From Sulfurovum sp. AR (GTDB lineage Bacteria; Campylobacterota; Campylobacteria; Campylobacterales; Sulfurovaceae): a stretch of DNA of 64,000 nt. A model generated the notes under the pieces. That model was not told the origin of the DNA. It made no database searches and was given only the letters and a program-made list of their open reading frames with translations. The translations under genes were made by a program, and so were the position numbers. The stretch covers positions 186,001 to 250,000 of the forward strand of contig NZ_AJLE01000001.1 in assembly GCF_000296775.1 (NCBI RefSeq). Direction: 5' to 3'. Below, in pieces: positions 21,385-30,068 of the stretch. How positions within the stretch are numbered: the stretch's first letter is position 1; each line of letters opens with the position of its first letter.

Positions 21385-21519
21385 AATAAAATCAATTAAA
21401 TCTCCAACTTATAAAGCTCAAATCGTAAAATTAAAATAGTTTCATAGCTTAAAACTATGAGTTTGTTAATTTTAGACAATAATGCTAAAATTACGCAATT
21501 TAAAACCGAAAGGATTGTA

Positions 21520-22779
21520 GTGAAAGTTACAGTAGAAAAAGTAGATGATATAAACTACATTATAAGTGGTTCAGTTCAAAATAGCGTAATCGAAGAGAAA
21601 GTCGCTAAACTTAAAGAAGAATCAGAAAAAGCACCAAAGGACGAAAAGTCCACAGATGAGAATATTGAACAAAATGCCGCAGGTCAAGTATTTCAAGACT
21701 TCATTAATGCTGGAATTAAAGAAGGTAATTTAGATGTTGAAAACATTTTGGGTCAACCTGGACTTAAAAAGTATGAGCAACAAGAAGATAGTATTTACTT
21801 TGAAGTAGAAGTTGCTGTAAGCCCTGAGATCAATGTTGATGACATTGATTTCGATGAGATCGCGCCATCTTACACAAAACCTACTGCAAGTCCCGAAGCG
21901 GTAGAAGCAAAACTTGCAGAGTTCGCTCAACAACAAGCGCCATTTACCAAACTTGAAACACCAAAGCCGATCGAAGTTGGTGATGTCGCTGTGATCGATT
22001 TTACAGGGTATATAGATGATAAACCTTTTGAAGGCGGTAGTGCTGAGAAGTTCAATATTAAAGTAGGTTCCAACAAGTTTATTCCAGGATTTGAAGAACA
22101 GCTTGTAGGCATGGAGTATGGGGAAGAAAAAGATGTTATCGTGACTTTCCCAAAAGATTATTCTGCTGATGATCTAGCGGGGAAAGAAGCCAAATTTGTT
22201 GTTAAATTGCATGAAATTCAAGAACAAAAGCCGGTGACCATCGATGACGCTTTTGCACAAAAGGTATTGAACAATAATACAGCAACGGTTGAGACACTGA
22301 AGAAACAGTTCGGAGAACAAGTCACAGCTGAAGAGCTTTCACAGATCTATATGCGTGATCTTAAGCCGAAAATTGTAGAAGCGTTACTCGCAAAATTTGA
22401 CTTTACCTTGCCAAACAATGTTGTAGAGACAGAGATCGATGCGAAGGTCCGTGAAAAGTCAAGAGGATTCAGTGAAGAGCAACATAAAGAATATGTAGAA
22501 GATAAGGAAAAATTCAAAGAGCTTAGAGAATCTGTACGTGAAGAGGCAAGACAAAGTATCAAGTTAGCGCTTATTGTTGAAGCCTTGGCGAAAAGAGAGG
22601 GTATTGATGTACATGAGCAAGAGGTTATTGCTGCACTGGGGTACCAGGCTACAATGACAGGTCAAGATCCACAGGCATTGTTAAAATATTACCAAGATAA
22701 TAACTTGATGACAGCAGCTAAAATGGGACTCACAGAAGATAAACTTTTTGGGCATATACTTGGATTCCATAAAGCATAA
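21520..22779 (+). CDS. tig: Trigger factor with altered ribosome-docking region
   Basis: A 419-residue ribosome-associated chaperone and prolyl isomerase. The FKBP-type domain (about residues 150-245: VIDFTGYIDDKPFEGG, FIPGFEEQLVGM) and the helical C-terminal chaperone domain are normal. The N-terminal domain is odd: between KLKEESEKAP and EQNAAGQVF I find an acidic segment where the GFRxGxxP ribosome-docking signature should be. The start is GTG 21520, which follows AAAGGA and matches the family N-terminus VKVTVEKV; an upstream ATG at 21457 has no support. In Campylobacter clpP follows tig; here an LRR gene does. Confidence 0.92.
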   Translation: MKVTVEKVDDINYIISGSVQNSVIEEKVAKLKEESEKAPKDEKSTDENIEQNAAGQVFQDFINAGIKEGNLDVENILGQPGLKKYEQQEDSIYFEVEVAVSPEINVDDIDFDEIAPSYTKPTASPEAVEAKLAEFAQQQAPFTKLETPKPIEVGDVAVIDFTGYIDDKPFEGGSAEKFNIKVGSNKFIPGFEEQLVGMEYGEEKDVIVTFPKDYSADDLAGKEAKFVVKLHEIQEQKPVTIDDAFAQKVLNNNTATVETLKKQFGEQVTAEELSQIYMRDLKPKIVEALLAKFDFTLPNNVVETEIDAKVREKSRGFSEEQHKEYVEDKEKFKELRESVREEARQSIKLALIVEALAKREGIDVHEQEVIAALGYQATMTGQDPQALLKYYQDNNLMTAAKMGLTEDKLFGHILGFHKA

Positions 22780-22794: not shown

Positions 22795-23460
22795 ATGAAT
22801 AACACAGAGGAACTCTGGATTCAGACACTTTGGGAATGGGCAGATGAAAATGCTGTTCCTGATCTAAAGTGGGTAGAACATGATTCATATCTAAAAGGCG
22901 GTTACTTCAAAGGATTGCCAAGAAGCAAAGAGGCTTTACTGAACTTAACAGAGCTGAACCTTCTTGGTGCCCAGCTGACTGAACTGCCAGTAGAGATAGG
23001 TAATCTGATACATTTAAAAAAGCTCTATCTTTTAGGCAACCAGCTTACGCATTTGCCCTCTGAGATAGGTCAACTTGTAAGTTTGGAAGAACTTTATCTC
23101 CCCGGTAACCAATTAAGCAGCTTACCAAAGGAAATAGGGGCATTACATAATTTAAAACTGCTTCTTTTACAAGAGAATCGACTCACAACTCTGCCAAAGC
23201 AGATTGGAGAACTTCAAAATCTGATAACCTTGGAACTTGGCGGGAACCAGTTGACATCTCTACCTGAAGAGATCGGAAAACTTACCAACTTAAGTAAATT
23301 AACCGTTTGGAAAAATAAACTAACATCTCTACCCAAAGAGATTGTACACCTTGTAAACCTGACAGAGTTGGATTGTATTTACAATAAACTGGAATTGACA
23401 AAAGAGCATATTGAGTGGCTAGAGACTTTACTCGCCAAAGAGTGTTCAGTCAGTGTGTAA
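22795..23460 (+). CDS. Cytoplasmic leucine-rich repeat protein
   Basis: A 221-residue protein with about seven tandem 23-residue leucine-rich repeats (residues 48-205) of the pattern LxxLxLxxNxLxxLPxEIGxL. They are preceded by a Trp-rich cap (WIQTLWEWADEN). There is no signal peptide, so it probably acts as a cytoplasmic protein-binding scaffold. The ATG lies 16 bases after the trigger factor stop without a clear ribosome site, so translation may depend on the upstream gene. The partner is unknown. Confidence 0.85.
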   Translation: MNNTEELWIQTLWEWADENAVPDLKWVEHDSYLKGGYFKGLPRSKEALLNLTELNLLGAQLTELPVEIGNLIHLKKLYLLGNQLTHLPSEIGQLVSLEELYLPGNQLSSLPKEIGALHNLKLLLLQENRLTTLPKQIGELQNLITLELGGNQLTSLPEEIGKLTNLSKLTVWKNKLTSLPKEIVHLVNLTELDCIYNKLELTKEHIEWLETLLAKECSVSV

Positions 23461-23538: not shown

Positions 23539-23946
23539 ATGCCTTATGATTCAGTTGACAGACCTTCCATAGAGAGAATGGTACGTGAGTTCTATACGGA
23601 CGTACTTCAAGATGATATCCTAGGTCCTATTTTTGTTAAAGCTTTGGGAAATGATCTGAAAAACGGTAAATGGTATGAACACTTGAATACACTCTATAAT
23701 TTTTGGATGCAGATGATGACAGGTGAGTCACCGTATCAGGGCCACCCTTTTCCTCCGCATGCATTTCTAGGGCCGCTTCACCGTGAAACCTTTGAACGAT
23801 GGTTAGAACTTTTTCATGCAACGGTCTATCGGCTCTTTGTTCCTGAGATCGCTGATAAGTTTTATAGAAAAGCCGACATCCTTGCAGAACAGTTTATGGA
23901 TAACCTTGGCATCAATGACGACGACGATGAAGATGATGACTACTAA
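23539..23946 (+). CDS. Group III truncated haemoglobin
   Basis: A 135-residue truncated haemoglobin that aligns over its whole length with Campylobacter Ctb. The proximal histidine is H74 in PPHAFLGPL, the distal region has ILGPIF and NFWMQMM, and the helix ERWLELF follows. Group III globins bind O2 and NO and are linked to nitrosative stress or microaerobic oxygen handling. The tail DDDDEDDDY is unusually acidic. AGGAGAG precedes the ATG. A small acidic protein follows after 11 bases, probably in the same operon. Confidence 0.93.
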   Translation: MPYDSVDRPSIERMVREFYTDVLQDDILGPIFVKALGNDLKNGKWYEHLNTLYNFWMQMMTGESPYQGHPFPPHAFLGPLHRETFERWLELFHATVYRLFVPEIADKFYRKADILAEQFMDNLGINDDDDEDDDY

Positions 23947-24416: not shown

Positions 24417-24863
24417 CTATTTCCCGGTCTTGGCCTGTATCACTGGATTTTTCATAACAGCGGCACGGACATCTTCATTCTCATCTATCATTAATTGATC
24501 CAATATTTCACCTGGTATACTTGGATTGACAGCAAGAGAGGATCGCACATTTTCATCTTCATGTTTACTAAGTTCAGTGAGTATCTCCAAAGGTGTATTC
24601 GGGTTTCCTGCGATCCAATAGGAAAAGTCACTGTCCTGGCTGAGTTCAACTAAAGTATCTACAGGTGTATTTAAATGTTCTGCAACAAACTGTTTGACCA
24701 GAGGAATCTCATCTTGACTCAGTTTCACCAGTGTTTCTGCTGATGTATTCATATGTGCAGCGACACGTACGCGTACAAACGGATTCTCATCTGTACTTAA
24801 TTGATCTAAGATATCTGCGGATGTATTGTCATCTTGTAATAGTACTAATGCATCTGTATTCAT
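24417..24863 (-). CDS. LRV (leucine-rich repeat variant) protein
   Basis: A 148-residue protein made of five 24-26-residue LRV-type helical repeats, each with the pattern NTPxxxLxxLSxDExxxVRxxVAxxx (starts near residues 14, 40, 66, 90 and 116). LRV repeats form a right-handed solenoid; in Azotobacter a related protein has an Fe-S cluster domain near nif genes. The N-terminal Fe-S cysteines of that protein are absent here, since there is no cysteine at all. It is probably a protein-binding scaffold. It is transcribed against its neighbours. Confidence 0.85.
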   Translation of the reverse strand: MNTDALVLLQDDNTSADILDQLSTDENPFVRVRVAAHMNTSAETLVKLSQDEIPLVKQFVAEHLNTPVDTLVELSQDSDFSYWIAGNPNTPLEILTELSKHEDENVRSSLAVNPSIPGEILDQLMIDENEDVRAAVMKNPVIQAKTGK

Positions 24864-25036: not shown

Positions 25037-25411
25037 ATGGATACAACGATTGATATACACTTTCATGTAACACAAGAACAAAAAAAGACAATAGATCTAA
25101 GAGCGTTAGAAAATGGGTTTGATAACACCTCTGCCTATCTAAAAGTCGTTGCACTCAAAACGCAGGCATTCACACTTACACCTGCAGGTTCATCCACTGG
25201 CGAAGCATCGGTAGAACTTGGATTTAAAGTCACAGAGGCACAAAAAACAAAAATAGAAGAGAATATGAAAGAGAGCGGTTGTGAAGAGCTTACAGAATAT
25301 CTAAAATATGTTGCATTGCATGCCGTAGTCACAGCAGTAGTAGAGGTACGTTCTACTGGAAGCCTGGATGATATGTTAGCGCGTATTGCTAAAGCAAAGA
25401 GTAACGGCTAG
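25037..25411 (+). CDS. Small protein with two tandem ribbon-helix-helix-like modules
   Basis: A 124-residue protein built by internal duplication. Residues about 5-42 (IDIHFHVTQEQKKTIDLRA, then SAYLKVVAL) and about 59-97 (VELGFKVTEAQKTKIEENM, then TEYLKYVAL) share a beta strand followed by two helices, the pattern of ribbon-helix-helix or MobC-like proteins. If so, one chain could form the dimer-like DNA-binding unit by itself. AAAGGA lies upstream. It precedes the AAA chimera by 100 bases on the same strand; a TATAAT near 25432 suggests that gene has its own promoter. Confidence 0.7.
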   Translation: MDTTIDIHFHVTQEQKKTIDLRALENGFDNTSAYLKVVALKTQAFTLTPAGSSTGEASVELGFKVTEAQKTKIEENMKESGCEELTEYLKYVALHAVVTAVVEVRSTGSLDDMLARIAKAKSNG

Positions 25412-25511: not shown

Positions 25512-28136
25512 ATGACAGAAACAGAAGCATTAGTCAAAGCCAATATTGAAAAATACAAGAAATTAGATAAAGGCGAATGGGACGATGAAGCCCTCCAAGA
25601 GGCGCAAAACAATATAGAATTTGTTAAGCAGTTTAAAGAAGTACTTTCTAAAGAACTCTTTGGACAAGAACAAGCGATCAATGTTGTTGCCAACAGTATG
25701 AAAACCACTGTCAAAGATCAAAAAGGACCTAAGGCAACCTATCTTTTTTTAGGACCTCCGGCTACCGGTAAGACCTTCCTTGCAGAACTGATGGCAGAAC
25801 ATATACCTAAGTATAAGATCATGAAGTTCGATATGACACAGTACCATCAGCAAAACGGTGGAGAGTTGTATGGTTATCCTGCCGGGTGGAAAGGGTATGG
25901 CGTCGGTCAACTCACAGGCTTCGTACATAGAAATCCTAAGGCTGTCATCGTACTTGATTCTTTTGAAAAGTGTGACAATGTCATCCAGAATAACCTTTTT
26001 TCCATCTTTGAAGGTGGTAAGATGCGTGATGCATGTGGTTGGGATAAGATCACAGATGAGCCGTGTAATGAAGATCCTGATATCATCTACAACGATGAAA
26101 ATGCAAACTATATGGTGGATTTTACAGAGGCCATTTTTATCATTACGACGAGTGTCGGTAAAGAGCTTTATCAAGATTACAGATTTCAAGATCTAGTTGA
26201 AAAAGACTATGTACAAGCTGAATCAATGATCCTTGAGGCTATAAAGAGAGAAAAGAAGAGAGAAAGCAGAAGCGGTGGTGTCCAAGAAGCCATTGTCCCT
26301 GAGCTCGTTTCGAGATTCTCTAAGGCACACATTGTTCTGTTTAACAAGCTTGAGTATGATGCCTTTGAGAAAATATCCAAAAGAGTCTTCCTGGGCTATA
26401 AAGATGAGTTCAATGATCAATATAAGATCGAGTTTGTTGTAGGTAAGAATTTTGATAACTTTTTGAAAATACAGATGCTTAATTTTGCTCCAGAACTGGA
26501 TGCAAGACGTCTTAAAGAGAAGGTAAGTACTTACTTTTTTAATAGAATCACCCAATTCATGCAAGATTCAGACAAACCTATCATGTATTTCAAGCAGATC
26601 AAGGTATCTCTCTCTAAAGAGTCTGTAGCATATTTAAAAGAACGGGTAACACCGCTTATAGAAAATGAGACCCTTGTAAGAGAACTCTTTAGAAAAAACA
26701 CTACCCTTGATATCAATGATACGATCACTGAGAAGAATGGCATCATTACCTATAAAGTCAATTCATGTAAGTTTTCACAGGTAGTGAGGATCAAGGATTT
26801 TAGCGAAGATGGTTTGGTCTTTGACATTCCTAATGTCTCTTTTAATGATATTGCAGGCCACCATAAGGCAAAGCAGAGACTAGGTGAGGTCATTAACTTT
26901 TTTAAAGAGCCAAAACTTTTGGAAAGTTTTAATATTGCACCGCCAAAAGGTATGCTTTTGTATGGACCTCCGGGTACAGGAAAGACGATGCTGGCAAAGG
27001 CTTTTGCCAAAGAGGCGGAACTCCCTTTTATCTCGACTACGGGATTGGAGCTGCTCCAGCCTGAAAAGACAAAGTCGATCTTTACCAGGGCAAAAGCGTA
27101 TGCACCGGCTATCATCTTTATTGACGAGATAGATACTATCGGAAGACGTGATGCAGAAAACGGTAGGGAAGTACCTATCAATAAACTCTTGTCAGAGATG
27201 GATGGTTTTTCAGGGAGAAAAGGTGAAGATATCTTTGTGATTGCTGCAACCAACTACAAAGAAAATATCGATCCAGCTATTATACGGCCGGGAAGGGTAG
27301 AGATCCATATAGAGATCAACAATCTTGATAAAGATGCAAGGCAGTACTTTTTGGATAAAGTGATCAATGAAAAGCCTACAAGCGGTACATTTGATATGAA
27401 AAAACTGCTGATGTATACCACAGGATTTACAGGTTCCCAACTTGAAATGCTAGGAAAAGAAGCCTCATACTACTGTTTGCGTCATGGATTGCCTGCGATC
27501 ACCCAGGATATCCTCATTGAGCAGATCAATACGATCAAATATGGAGAGAGACAGTCTTATCTCTCTCTTGAACAGATGTTTGAAGAGACAGCGGTCTATG
27601 AAGCAGGACGTGCAGTCATCTCTAAGGTCTTAATGCCTCATATTCATATAGAACATGTCAGTCTTACACCTAAAGACAATAATGAACATTTCATTTCACA
27701 TAACTACAGTGATGTGCAAGAGAATATGACGGTTAAAGATTTTAAAAACAAAATATGTGTCTCATTGGCAGGAAGAGCAGCTCAGATCAAACAGTTCGGT
27801 GATATAGAAGGAATGGACTCTGGTGCTTCAAATGACCTACAGCAGGCCACACGTGATGCTTACGTGGCTATCGCACATTATGGAATGGATAAAGAGGTTG
27901 GGTATATCAATATCAATGGTGTGATGGATGCACAACAAAAATCTATTGCAAATAAAGATACAGAACACTATCATGAGCAAATAGACTCTGCTCTTGAACG
28001 CTGGATGACTGAAGGTCAACAGACAGTGGTTCATCTAGTCAATGAACATTGGAGTACTATAGAAAAACTCTCTAAAATACTTCTTAAAAAAGAGATCATC
28101 TATGCAGATGAATTGGATGAGATCGTAGCGAGTTAA
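25512..28136 (+). CDS. Chimeric AAA protein: Clp-type AAA plus FtsH-type AAA with inactive M41 domain
   Basis: An 874-residue soluble protein with two different AAA motors. Module 1 (about 45-290) is Clp/Hsp100-like, with Walker A GPPATGKT (81-88) and PELVSRF (263-269), but its Walker B reads IVLDSFEK (146-153), with Ser150 where the catalytic Glu is expected. Module 2 (about 440-660) is FtsH-like, with GPPGTGKT (485-492), an intact FIDEID (536-541) and IRPGR (591-595). The C-terminal M41 peptidase-like domain has YEAGR (696-700) in place of zinc-binding HEAGH. The N-terminal membrane helices of FtsH are missing. It is probably an ATP-driven unfoldase or remodeller without its own protease activity. 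A divergent ClpS gene lies 0.6 kb away. Confidence 0.88.
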   Translation: MTETEALVKANIEKYKKLDKGEWDDEALQEAQNNIEFVKQFKEVLSKELFGQEQAINVVANSMKTTVKDQKGPKATYLFLGPPATGKTFLAELMAEHIPKYKIMKFDMTQYHQQNGGELYGYPAGWKGYGVGQLTGFVHRNPKAVIVLDSFEKCDNVIQNNLFSIFEGGKMRDACGWDKITDEPCNEDPDIIYNDENANYMVDFTEAIFIITTSVGKELYQDYRFQDLVEKDYVQAESMILEAIKREKKRESRSGGVQEAIVPELVSRFSKAHIVLFNKLEYDAFEKISKRVFLGYKDEFNDQYKIEFVVGKNFDNFLKIQMLNFAPELDARRLKEKVSTYFFNRITQFMQDSDKPIMYFKQIKVSLSKESVAYLKERVTPLIENETLVRELFRKNTTLDINDTITEKNGIITYKVNSCKFSQVVRIKDFSEDGLVFDIPNVSFNDIAGHHKAKQRLGEVINFFKEPKLLESFNIAPPKGMLLYGPPGTGKTMLAKAFAKEAELPFISTTGLELLQPEKTKSIFTRAKAYAPAIIFIDEIDTIGRRDAENGREVPINKLLSEMDGFSGRKGEDIFVIAATNYKENIDPAIIRPGRVEIHIEINNLDKDARQYFLDKVINEKPTSGTFDMKKLLMYTTGFTGSQLEMLGKEASYYCLRHGLPAITQDILIEQINTIKYGERQSYLSLEQMFEETAVYEAGRAVISKVLMPHIHIEHVSLTPKDNNEHFISHNYSDVQENMTVKDFKNKICVSLAGRAAQIKQFGDIEGMDSGASNDLQQATRDAYVAIAHYGMDKEVGYININGVMDAQQKSIANKDTEHYHEQIDSALERWMTEGQQTVVHLVNEHWSTIEKLSKILLKKEIIYADELDEIVAS

Positions 28137-28223: not shown

Positions 28224-28616
28224 TTAGCCGATGTTCGGAGCAGTCTGTGCATCCCACTTCGTAATATGTTGTGTATACCACTTTTTAAAATCTTTTTCCA
28301 AAAAACCTTGCAGCTCTTTTGGACCTTTCAGGACTTCCCATCTTTTATGAAACTTTTCTAATTTTTTTCGTATGAGATCATGGTCACTTTTGTGCATCTG
28401 CATATCGGAGTAGGCACTCTGTTCCATCATATCCTCTTCTGTTTTAAAGTGAGTCTCGATTTCAGCCAAGAATTCCGGGAAGAGTTCGTCAACTTTATCA
28501 ACATCTTTGGCTTTCACAGCATCATAAAAGTTGTTGATCACTTCCATCTCATCTTCATGCAGCATATTCATCATAGCATTTGCCACTTGTTGTACATCTT
28601 GTTGTTGAATTAGCAT
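28224..28616 (-). CDS. Haemerythrin-domain protein
   Basis: A 130-residue four-helix di-iron protein. Counted from the ATG at 28616, the full ligand set is present: His20, His56, Glu60 (HFKTE), His75, His79 (HKSDH), His117 and Asp122 (HxxxxD). Bacterial haemerythrins bind O2 reversibly for storage, sensing or delivery to oxygenases. No membrane or signalling domain is attached. The start is ATG 28616, after a GGAG site; a TTG 15 bases upstream overlaps that site and is less likely. It is the third O2-binding protein in this 6-kb block. Confidence 0.92.
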   Translation of the reverse strand: MLIQQQDVQQVANAMMNMLHEDEMEVINNFYDAVKAKDVDKVDELFPEFLAEIETHFKTEEDMMEQSAYSDMQMHKSDHDLIRKKLEKFHKRWEVLKGPKELQGFLEKDFKKWYTQHITKWDAQTAPNIG

Positions 28617-28738
28617 TTTATCTCCATACAATTAGGTTTTCAAAAAAGATTATAGCTATAAAAGTTTATAGTTACTGACAGATATCAATATATTGCAGTA
28701 GTTAAAGTGTAAAATAAGAGAAGAAGAGAGATGAGGCG

Positions 28739-29050
28739 TTATACTTCCTCGATCAGGCATACAAGAGAAAAACCCTCTTTTTTCGCTTTTTCTTCGATCA
28801 TCTCTGCTTTGGTCTGGGCTATTTCAAACATATACCCGCCACAAAAACCCTCACCATTGGTTACGATCTCATGGGCAATGGCTTCTGCCTCTTCCTGATC
28901 TTTATGAAACACTTCTTTGAGCATTCTCATACAGAATTCCCATGAAACATGCTTATCATTGATGATTGAAACAAGGCAGATCTTAGGTGTATCGAACTCT
29001 GTTTTCAAGTAAGCTTTGAGTGTTTTGGGTTTTTTAATCGTTACTGGCAT
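28739..29050 (-). CDS. clpS: ClpS-like adaptor with altered degron pocket
   Basis: A 103-residue ClpS-family adaptor, which normally delivers N-degron substrates to ClpA/ClpC. The fold blocks ICLVSIINDK, WEFCMRMLKEVF, GEGFCGGYMFEIAQTKAEM and the C-terminal LVCLIEE are clear. Aligned to E. coli ClpS, pocket residues Asn34-Asp35 are kept, Asp36 is Lys, and His66 is replaced (Val in my alignment). Substrate choice may therefore differ from the classic N-end rule. The start is ATG 29050 with AGGAAC upstream; the frame is open to 29134 but nothing supports a longer protein. Confidence 0.85.
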   Translation of the reverse strand: MPVTIKKPKTLKAYLKTEFDTPKICLVSIINDKHVSWEFCMRMLKEVFHKDQEEAEAIAHEIVTNGEGFCGGYMFEIAQTKAEMIEEKAKKEGFSLVCLIEEV

Positions 29051-29302
29051 ACTGTTCCTATCTACTCTAGATAATTTATCGTTTACTATTATACCCAAAA
29101 AACCTATAGGAGTGCTATGGTGCCTATTGGACACAGCAGATAGAGATGAAAGGAGTGTTCCAGTTTTTGATAAATCCTGCTATAATTCCATTTCAAAAAA
29201 AGCATCTTTTACCTTGATAATACTTGTGTTTAGAGATGGTTTGTAGAGAAAGGATCAAGAATAGAACTTCAAAACAGTATTACTAGAGCGAACCTTAGAA
29301 TC

Positions 29303-29644
29303 TTGATGACCCTGTTTTATAAAAAAGCGATAGAGGATGAAATACTAGCGCCTTTTTTCATCGATGAGATTGGCGATGATCTAAGCAGTGAAGATTGGTT
29401 TGAACATATAGATCTTTTAGCAGATTTCTGGTTGGCTAAAATGCTGGGGGAAAATACCTATTATGGAAACTTTGTAGGTGCCCATGTAAAGATGCCCCAT
29501 TTAAAAAGAGAAACGTTTACCAGGTGGCTAGAACTTTTTGGAACAACGGCTGATGAAGTCTATGTAGCTGAGATCGCTGATGTTTTCAAGAAAAAAGGGG
29601 AGCAGTTCTCCAAACAGTTTCTCAACACCAAGAAAAAGATCTAA
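29303..29644 (+). CDS. Second group III truncated haemoglobin, start uncertain
   Basis: A truncated haemoglobin similar to that at 23539 and to Campylobacter Ctb, with the proximal histidine in GAHVKMPHL (residue 61) and ETFTRWLELF after it. The first usable starts, TTG 29303 and ATG 29306, fall inside helix A. In the same frame upstream, bases 29261-29302 encode an N-terminus like that of other family members (NSITRANLRI). The only codon there with a good ribosome site (AAAGGA at 29249) is ATA at 29261. So the gene either uses a rare start, has lost its ATG, or makes a shortened protein. Confidence 0.82.
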   Translation: MMTLFYKKAIEDEILAPFFIDEIGDDLSSEDWFEHIDLLADFWLAKMLGENTYYGNFVGAHVKMPHLKRETFTRWLELFGTTADEVYVAEIADVFKKKGEQFSKQFLNTKKKI

Positions 29645-29687
29645 ATACGTTTTTCATAGTTGATATGTTTTGAATGAAAGGAAAAGA

Positions 29688-30068
29688 ATGAATAGAGATA
29701 AAAAACGGAATTTACTTTTCATACAGGATGAGAGGTCGGAGTTTGATGCAGAGACCAAAATGTTCAATGCATTGTTCAATAGGGTCGATAAAGTTTCAGG
29801 AAAAGAAGAGGCCTTAAAACTTTTTGATGCGAACGACTATGATATTGTCCTTTGCGATCTGAGCGTTGAACCTGAGGGTGCCGGTCTTCTAAAACAGATG
29901 AAAGACATGAAAACTGAACAGACAATATTTGCCTTGGTTTCACCCAAAGATACAGATAAACTGTACGGTATAGCTGACTTAGGGATCAATGCCTTTGAGT
30001 TGACACCAGAGTACTTTGATCAAGCTTTGGAACAAATTGCAATATTCGACCCCCAACGAAACTCATAA
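29688..30068 (+). CDS. Stand-alone receiver-domain (CheY-like) protein
   Basis: A 126-residue single receiver domain. An acidic patch near the N-terminus (IQDERSEFD) and the phospho-acceptor aspartate in IVLCDLSVEPEG near residue 58 are visible. The conserved lysine is probably in VSPKD near residue 95. There is no output domain, so it acts by protein-protein contact or as a phosphate relay. No histidine kinase lies in the window. The start is ATG 29688 after AAAGGA; a TTG 18 bases earlier is weaker. It lies 43 bases after the second globin gene, so they may be cotranscribed. Confidence 0.8.
   Translation: MNRDKKRNLLFIQDERSEFDAETKMFNALFNRVDKVSGKEEALKLFDANDYDIVLCDLSVEPEGAGLLKQMKDMKTEQTIFALVSPKDTDKLYGIADLGINAFELTPEYFDQALEQIAIFDPQRNS

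Follow-up and report, generated by a model that had tools for sequence, protein, structure and literature searches.

The gene at positions 25512..28136 (+ strand) of the window, the whole 64,000-nucleotide stretch of Sulfurovum sp. AR DNA analyzed here, encodes a type-A Clp/FtsH hybrid of 874 aa, recognized by its Pfam domains and orthologues. This protein is probably a soluble two-ring AAA+ motor, a former protease that now serves as a non-proteolytic remodeller or chaperone with a dedicated set of partners. It lies outside FtsH and Hsp100 as these families are defined, since their defining features fail in it. A limited literature search found no description of its architecture.

The hybrid ORF comprises 874 codons, begins with ATG and is uninterrupted. 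Pfam domains AAA_2 (residues 73-270), AAA (481-603) and Peptidase_M41 (691-871) were all matched far above their cut-offs. The chain starts with a Clp/ClpB NBD2-type AAA module and its small domain (ring 1; 25602..26741, +; residues 31-410), which is specifically of the Clp NBD2 type, as the HMMs of ClpA, ClpB and TssH match it via their second AAA domain. There follow an FtsH-type AAA module (ring 2; 26829..27551, +; residues ~440-680), with intact arginines and Walker motifs (GPPGTGKT and FIDEID), and a pseudo-M41 domain (27552..28130, +; residues 681-873; PF01434, 6.2e-25). The ring-1 Walker B of the window copy reads VIVLD149-S150-FEK (D149-S150 at 25956..25961, +), and the former HEXXH zinc motif is now Y696-E-A-G-R700 (27597..27611, +). 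No transmembrane helix was found in the hybrid, whose highest 19-residue Kyte-Doolittle mean is 0.94, compared to 2.6-2.9 in the three membrane FtsHs of the same genome. The original prediction, made from the DNA alone, had described a Clp-like AAA module, an intact FtsH-like AAA module and an M41 domain in one soluble chain without the FtsH membrane helices, with Ser150 in place of the Walker B Glu of module 1 and YEAGR in place of HExxH; all of this was confirmed.

An AlphaFold2 model of the monomer, built from 45 own-locus sequences, had a mean pLDDT of 78.5 and a pTM of 0.58, and the domain folds are therefore more reliable than the domain arrangement. Residues 31-410 of the model resemble the ClpB C-terminal domain (4fd2/4fcv; VIA Z 23.7, rmsd 3.4-3.6), and residues 442-864 resemble FtsH (7zbh; VIA Z 22.7, rmsd 3.4); ring 2 gave a VIA Z of about 23 with FtsH/PAN structures. 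Structure prediction and the separate AAA_2, AAA and Peptidase_M41 profiles, which had been suggested earlier as a check, agree with the layout of two rings plus M41.

The hybrid has ring 2 and the M41 fold in common with the FtsH/M41 proteases (bacterial FtsH, m-AAA, i-AAA), with 31-37% identity to solved FtsH over residues 434-874, and it shares with them the third zinc-ligand Asp, Walker A/B and the second region of homology. However, it lacks the membrane helices, HEXXH and the FVG loop, carries an extra Clp-type ring in front, and scores 303.9 bits with NCBIfam FtsH_fam, below the cut-off of 600. Ring 1 resembles NBD2 of the Hsp100/Clp proteins (ClpA, ClpB, ClpC), down to the small domain and an aromatic loop in the pore. 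The hybrid, however, has only one Clp ring, without N-domain, NBD1 or ClpP loop; this NBD2-type ring is placed first, unlike in the Hsp100 order, and its Walker B Glu is lost. The anti-phage ATPase IetA of PADLOC (IteA in NCBIfam) shows generic classic-AAA similarity to residues 442-681, but the hybrid scores 98.9 against the NCBIfam cut-off of 510 and differs in domain architecture. An anti-phage system was rejected for the window copy, as PADLOC gave AAA-domain matches only.

Catalytic residues were compared in 42 distinct type-A sequences, 26 from the window clade (Y) and 16 from the sister clade (R). The ring-1 Walker B Glu position is occupied by Ser (12) or Ala (30) and the sensor-1 position by Ser (38, including 26/26 of clade Y) or Asn (4), while the ring-1 Walker A Lys, Arg268 and Arg332 are present in all 42. 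The Walker A Lys, Walker B D-E and both arginines of ring 2 are likewise invariant (42/42). At the zinc site, the first His is replaced by Tyr (26), Arg (13) or Lys (3) and is found in none of the sequences; the second is Arg in 25/26 sequences of Y and still His in 14/16 of R. The HEXXH Glu is retained in 40/42 and the third-ligand Asp in 42/42. The His replacements in both Y and R mean that the zinc site was lost in both clades, by different substitutions. It had been asked earlier whether Ser150 and YEAGR are conserved: the Glu and the first His are indeed always lost, but the residues that replace them vary (Ser/Ala; Tyr/Arg/Lys).

Selection was assessed by pairwise Nei-Gojobori dN/dS, calculated as ratios of sums. 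The values in the close set were 0.024 for ring 1, 0.035 for ring 2 and 0.080 for pseudo-M41, which makes ring 1 the most conserved part despite its missing Walker B Glu; in the wider sets pseudo-M41 gave 0.11 (Y) and 0.20 (R). Purifying selection on pseudo-M41 and the other folded domains (dN/dS ~0.02-0.2) is well supported by these comparisons, and since the loss of the zinc site is also fixed in both sub-clades, the losses represent lineage traits, not decay. The earlier description of the protein as a pseudo-protease is upheld by the same fixed loss and by the pseudo-M41 range of 0.08-0.20.

The distribution of the hybrid was determined in 175 genomes of the family, in a phylum search of Campylobacterota and in one close-relative scan of public assemblies, the single step to reach beyond this phylum. 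The type-A form is present in 24 of the 175 genomes (8 of clade Y and 16 of the sister clade; G149 has a mirror form instead) and at 24 loci of independent public assemblies. This recurrence shows that it is neither a lone decayed copy nor a product of assembly, and the suspicion raised earlier that two genes were fused by an assembly error is thus refuted. The phylum search and alignment identified further hybrids with the same architecture elsewhere in Campylobacterota, including five (L088-L092) in which HEXXH and the Walker B motifs of both rings are intact and a mirror lineage (L032, L093-L108; short forms L057-L086) that keeps HEXXH and has degenerate Walker or arginine motifs. In a tree built on ring 2 and M41, type A and the mirror lineage each formed one clade (100/100 in both cases), and the intact forms fell outside both, with an unsettled branch order among themselves. 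Given this position, the intact state is most simply regarded as ancestral, the starting point being an intact hybrid protease from which two lineages would later have lost complementary activities, each on its own. The original prediction had held that orthologues with intact HEXXH and DE would mark the window copy as merely decayed. Such relatives do exist (L088-L092). They are not members of the type-A clade, however, and seem to preserve the ancestral condition, as opposed to being orthologues of a gene broken by accident. The intact ancestor type, the mirror lineage and the partner genes described below had all been missed there. An origin from a mobile element or phage was rejected, as no hybrid was found on plasmids; among plasmid and phage records none covered 80% of the intact hybrid, and the best matches span the FtsH half alone.

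The FtsH pore-1 loop FVGVGA is missing from ring 2 of every hybrid, the intact ones included, leaving a six-residue gap; FVGVGA or a close form is present in the genome's three membrane FtsHs. In ring 1 of each type-A sequence shown, GW[KS]G replaces the Clp GYVG loop, and in the window copy it reads PAGWKG (W126; 25878..25895, +). The ring-1 pore loop is deleted or unalignable in type B, and none is recognizable in the long forms of the mirror lineage. Judging by these motifs, hydrolysis and aromatic grip seem to be placed on separate rings of one chain.

Genome-wide co-occurrence of the hybrid with a set of partner genes (TF2, P5, a hemerythrin subfamily and a clade-specific ClpS2) is a new observation. 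TF2 (21457..22779, +) is a second trigger factor that lacks the GFRxGK ribosome-docking signature. It scores above the TIGR00115 cut-off and shares FKBP_C (PF00254) and Trigger_C (PF05698) with trigger factor; no Trigger_N match was found. GFRxGK is absent from the 16 aligned TF2 sequences and from further ones compared, which have variable sequence at this place, whereas the canonical TF, whose gene adjoins clpP and def, carries GFRKGKVP. By its sequence, TF2 should act post-translationally. The gene is present in 20/24 hybrid genomes and 0/151 others (Fisher p 1e-22, with genomes treated as independent and shared ancestry ignored). Four hybrid genomes, including G097 (97% complete), lack TF2, so it is not strictly required; in G097 and G107 the single TF is the canonical one. 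The distances of TF2 and the hybrid correlate (r 0.89, 0/2000 Mantel permutations), as expected from shared descent. TF2 is tandemly duplicated in several sister-clade genomes (L109, L122, L147, L149). A literature search on a trigger-factor paralogue in Sulfurimonas found no paper.

P5 (15319..15810, +), a small protein of no known family that is usually encoded in two copies per genome, was found in 21/24 hybrid genomes and 0/151 others (p 3e-24, shared ancestry ignored), and among the genomes searched it is confined to those with type A. In its predicted model, which is of medium confidence, the N-terminus is helical and an alpha-beta3-alpha domain is present; no PDB match was obtained at E below 0.4, and comparison with PHROGs and NCBIfam gave weak matches only. 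A single-domain hemerythrin is encoded beside the hybrid (28224..28631, -), and its subfamily occurs in 16/24 hybrid genomes and 2/151 others (shared ancestry ignored).

ClpS2 (28739..29134, -; start codon uncertain; PF02617, 1.4e-15) is a second ClpS-like adaptor, told apart from the canonical one by its score (126 bits or more, compared to 68 or less). It is present in 8/8 genomes of the window clade and 0/167 others, and is thus absent from sister sub-clade R. ClpS2 shares with ClpS the ClpS domain and the docking helix, which retains an EIAETK-like face. The N-degron pocket of ClpS includes Asp36, Met40 and His66 (E. coli numbering). At these places ClpS2, whose pocket mostly reads D-K/R-x-V/I-S-W-E-F, has mostly K/R, always W and no equivalent of His66, and its pocket is thus altered in sequence.

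In a genome of another family (G423) the hybrid, TF2 and P5 each have a contig of their own, and in G135 TF2 and P5 are on contigs other than that of the hybrid. As the partners persist unlinked, simple hitch-hiking is disfavoured, and we infer a functional or physical link between the hybrid and TF2/P5. Neither TF2 nor P5 was found in the tested genomes with intact- or mirror-type hybrids.

Several other genes recur around the hybrid. Directly upstream is a small NikA/ribbon-helix-helix-like gene (25037..25411, +; PF21983, 2e-10), present at 12 window-clade loci, whose product is a possible regulator. Leucine-rich-repeat-variant (LRV) and LRR proteins are encoded at 24420-24863 and 22795-23460, the LRV protein recurring in 10 window-clade loci, and there are two recurrent truncated globins (23539-23946 and 29303-29644) and an orphan receiver-domain-like protein (29670-30068) that recurs near 15 window-clade hybrids. 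Genes assigned by eye, from their sequences, as 2-oxoacid oxidoreductases are also located near the hybrid locus. In Campylobacter jejuni, hemerythrins shield Por and Oor from oxygen (PMC4257069). With the hemerythrin, globin and oxidoreductase neighbours, this makes an oxygen-related client a reasonable guess, and we would speculate that proteins sensitive to oxygen or damaged by it, for example the neighbouring 2-oxoacid oxidoreductases, are the clients; the presence of hemerythrin and oxidoreductase genes here may simply be a matter of lifestyle. A promoter scan found 35 candidates, with 29 expected.

These data can be combined into a working model, in which the ancestor was an intact Clp-FtsH hybrid protease, protein cutting was lost during descent, and the present hybrid probably assembles into a hexamer. 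Ring 1 would bind ATP and hold clients without hydrolysis, as it keeps Walker A, the arginine finger, sensor 2 and the aromatic loop and has lost the Walker B Glu and usually the sensor-1 Asn. Hydrolysis would be supplied by ring 2, in which all ATPase residues are present; having no pore loop of its own, this ring may move ring 1 and the base instead of pulling by itself. Pseudo-M41 would act as a hexamerizing base and perhaps as a client surface, and the partner set would consist of TF2, P5 and often the hemerythrin, with ClpS2 as an addition in the window's clade. A remodelling role is supported indirectly, by co-occurrence with the second trigger factor and the other genes. Of the original proposal of an unfoldase or remodeller, the latter thus gains indirect support and the former is less certain, since the competent ring lacks its pore loop, which also argues against ordinary threading. 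The fullest version of the model, a new multi-component chaperone with a Clp ring before an FtsH ring, one hydrolysing and one gripping, on a dead-protease base, fed by a ribosome-independent TF and an adaptor, P5, and with an intact hybrid protease as the ancestor, its two activities having disappeared independently in two lineages, is plausible but more tentative than the general one.

The missing ring-2 pore loop and hydrolysis-dead ring 1 would also suit an ATPase-driven scaffold or regulatory switch, whose nucleotide-dependent assembly would gather the hemerythrin, ClpS2 and small partners into a platform for redox signalling, with no client being remodelled. The numerous small neighbours that resemble sensors (hemerythrin, globins, orphan receiver domain) fit this reading, but the most specific partner of known function, TF2, is a chaperone and the ring-1 pore Trp is retained in all type-A sequences shown, and we regard it as unlikely. 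Somewhat less likely still is a mixed protease, rebuilt from the hybrid with its live ATPase and an ATPase-dead, HEXXH-intact soluble paralogue from the window's own genome (C9:6373-7716, L002/L057). The two have complementary lesions within this genome and descend from the same hybrid family, and the paralogue is present in 7/8 window-clade genomes. However, it occurs in just 2/16 sister-clade hybrid genomes and, without the hybrid, in 27 genomes; the genes are unlinked and, overall, only weakly associated (p 0.053). A complementary two-subunit protease was rejected on account of this weak co-occurrence.

The IG[LF] loop that docks onto ClpP is found in ClpA, ClpC and ClpX and is absent from ClpB. 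In the hybrid no IG[LFYI]-like loop was found past sensor 1, the sole pattern matches being LGY294 and VGY796, and delivery of clients to ClpP was rejected for this reason. An adaptor-fed unfoldase passing clients to ClpP or another protease, suggested by the Clp-type ring and the docking face of the clade-specific ClpS2, is very improbable also in view of the lower face, which is occupied by pseudo-M41, and of the sister clade, which has no ClpS2. Moreover, ClpS normally binds the ClpA N-domain, and the hybrid has no such domain, which speaks against the ClpS2 link itself. As to a decaying ex-protease without a function of its own, key residues have been lost from two catalytic centres and the zinc motif differs between the sub-clades, but the low dN/dS of each folded domain already contradicts it, as do the open frames, the invariant ring-2 motifs and the specific partner genes, and we give it hardly any credence.

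For the preferred reading of a non-proteolytic motor, the nearest known logic is that of the plant FtsHi (Ycf2-FtsHi/FtsH12) motor, where, as in the FtsH-type half of the hybrid, the AAA domain is intact, the zinc histidines are replaced, the Glu is kept and the ATP motor is retained (PMC8197885). HEXXH has been lost there, and FtsH12 proteolysis is dispensable for import (PMC8197885). Structures of this motor (8xku/8xqw) were among the structural matches of the hybrid model. FtsHi, in contrast, is membrane-bound, plastidic and hetero-oligomeric and has no Clp-type ring, whereas the hybrid is soluble; the two probably arose separately within M41. A presumed natural series of intact hybrid protease, derived motor without protease and derived protease without motor makes the passage from AAA protease to pure remodeller directly testable in soluble proteins. 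The tie between a pseudo-protease and a TF without a ribosome-docking signature suggests an undescribed proteostasis pathway in Campylobacterota. In dozens of sulfur-metabolizing bacteria the hybrid is strongly preserved despite the loss of its cutting site and is accompanied by TF2 and P5, which hints at a machine for protein remodelling that has not been described before.

Four of the five intact hybrids (L124 7971-13908; L125 7665-18151; L127 3713-15436; L128) directly adjoin genes for large DUF4062 + STAND/NACHT-like proteins. At L124 the two genes overlap by a few bases, and at L127 a TIR/ThsB-like gene is also nearby. DUF4062 proteins have been reported as anti-phage NADases (PMC13174449), and the intact hybrid is possibly a STAND-linked defence protease. 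The fifth is followed by an ankyrin-repeat protein (L126 10441-11949) matching the PADLOC candidate PDC-M72A (2e-78). The soluble short M41 protein named above as the paralogue (L002 1465-2808 and L057-L086) is common in the genus; with an intact HEXXH and ATPase motifs that have degenerated (ILEDID, arginine finger absent), it is apparently an FtsH relative that no longer uses ATP hydrolysis. The genome of the window also encodes a second pseudo-FtsH outside the hybrid family, a membrane FtsH paralogue (L005; C10:206306-207178) with intact Walker motifs and VYQAAK in place of HEXXH.
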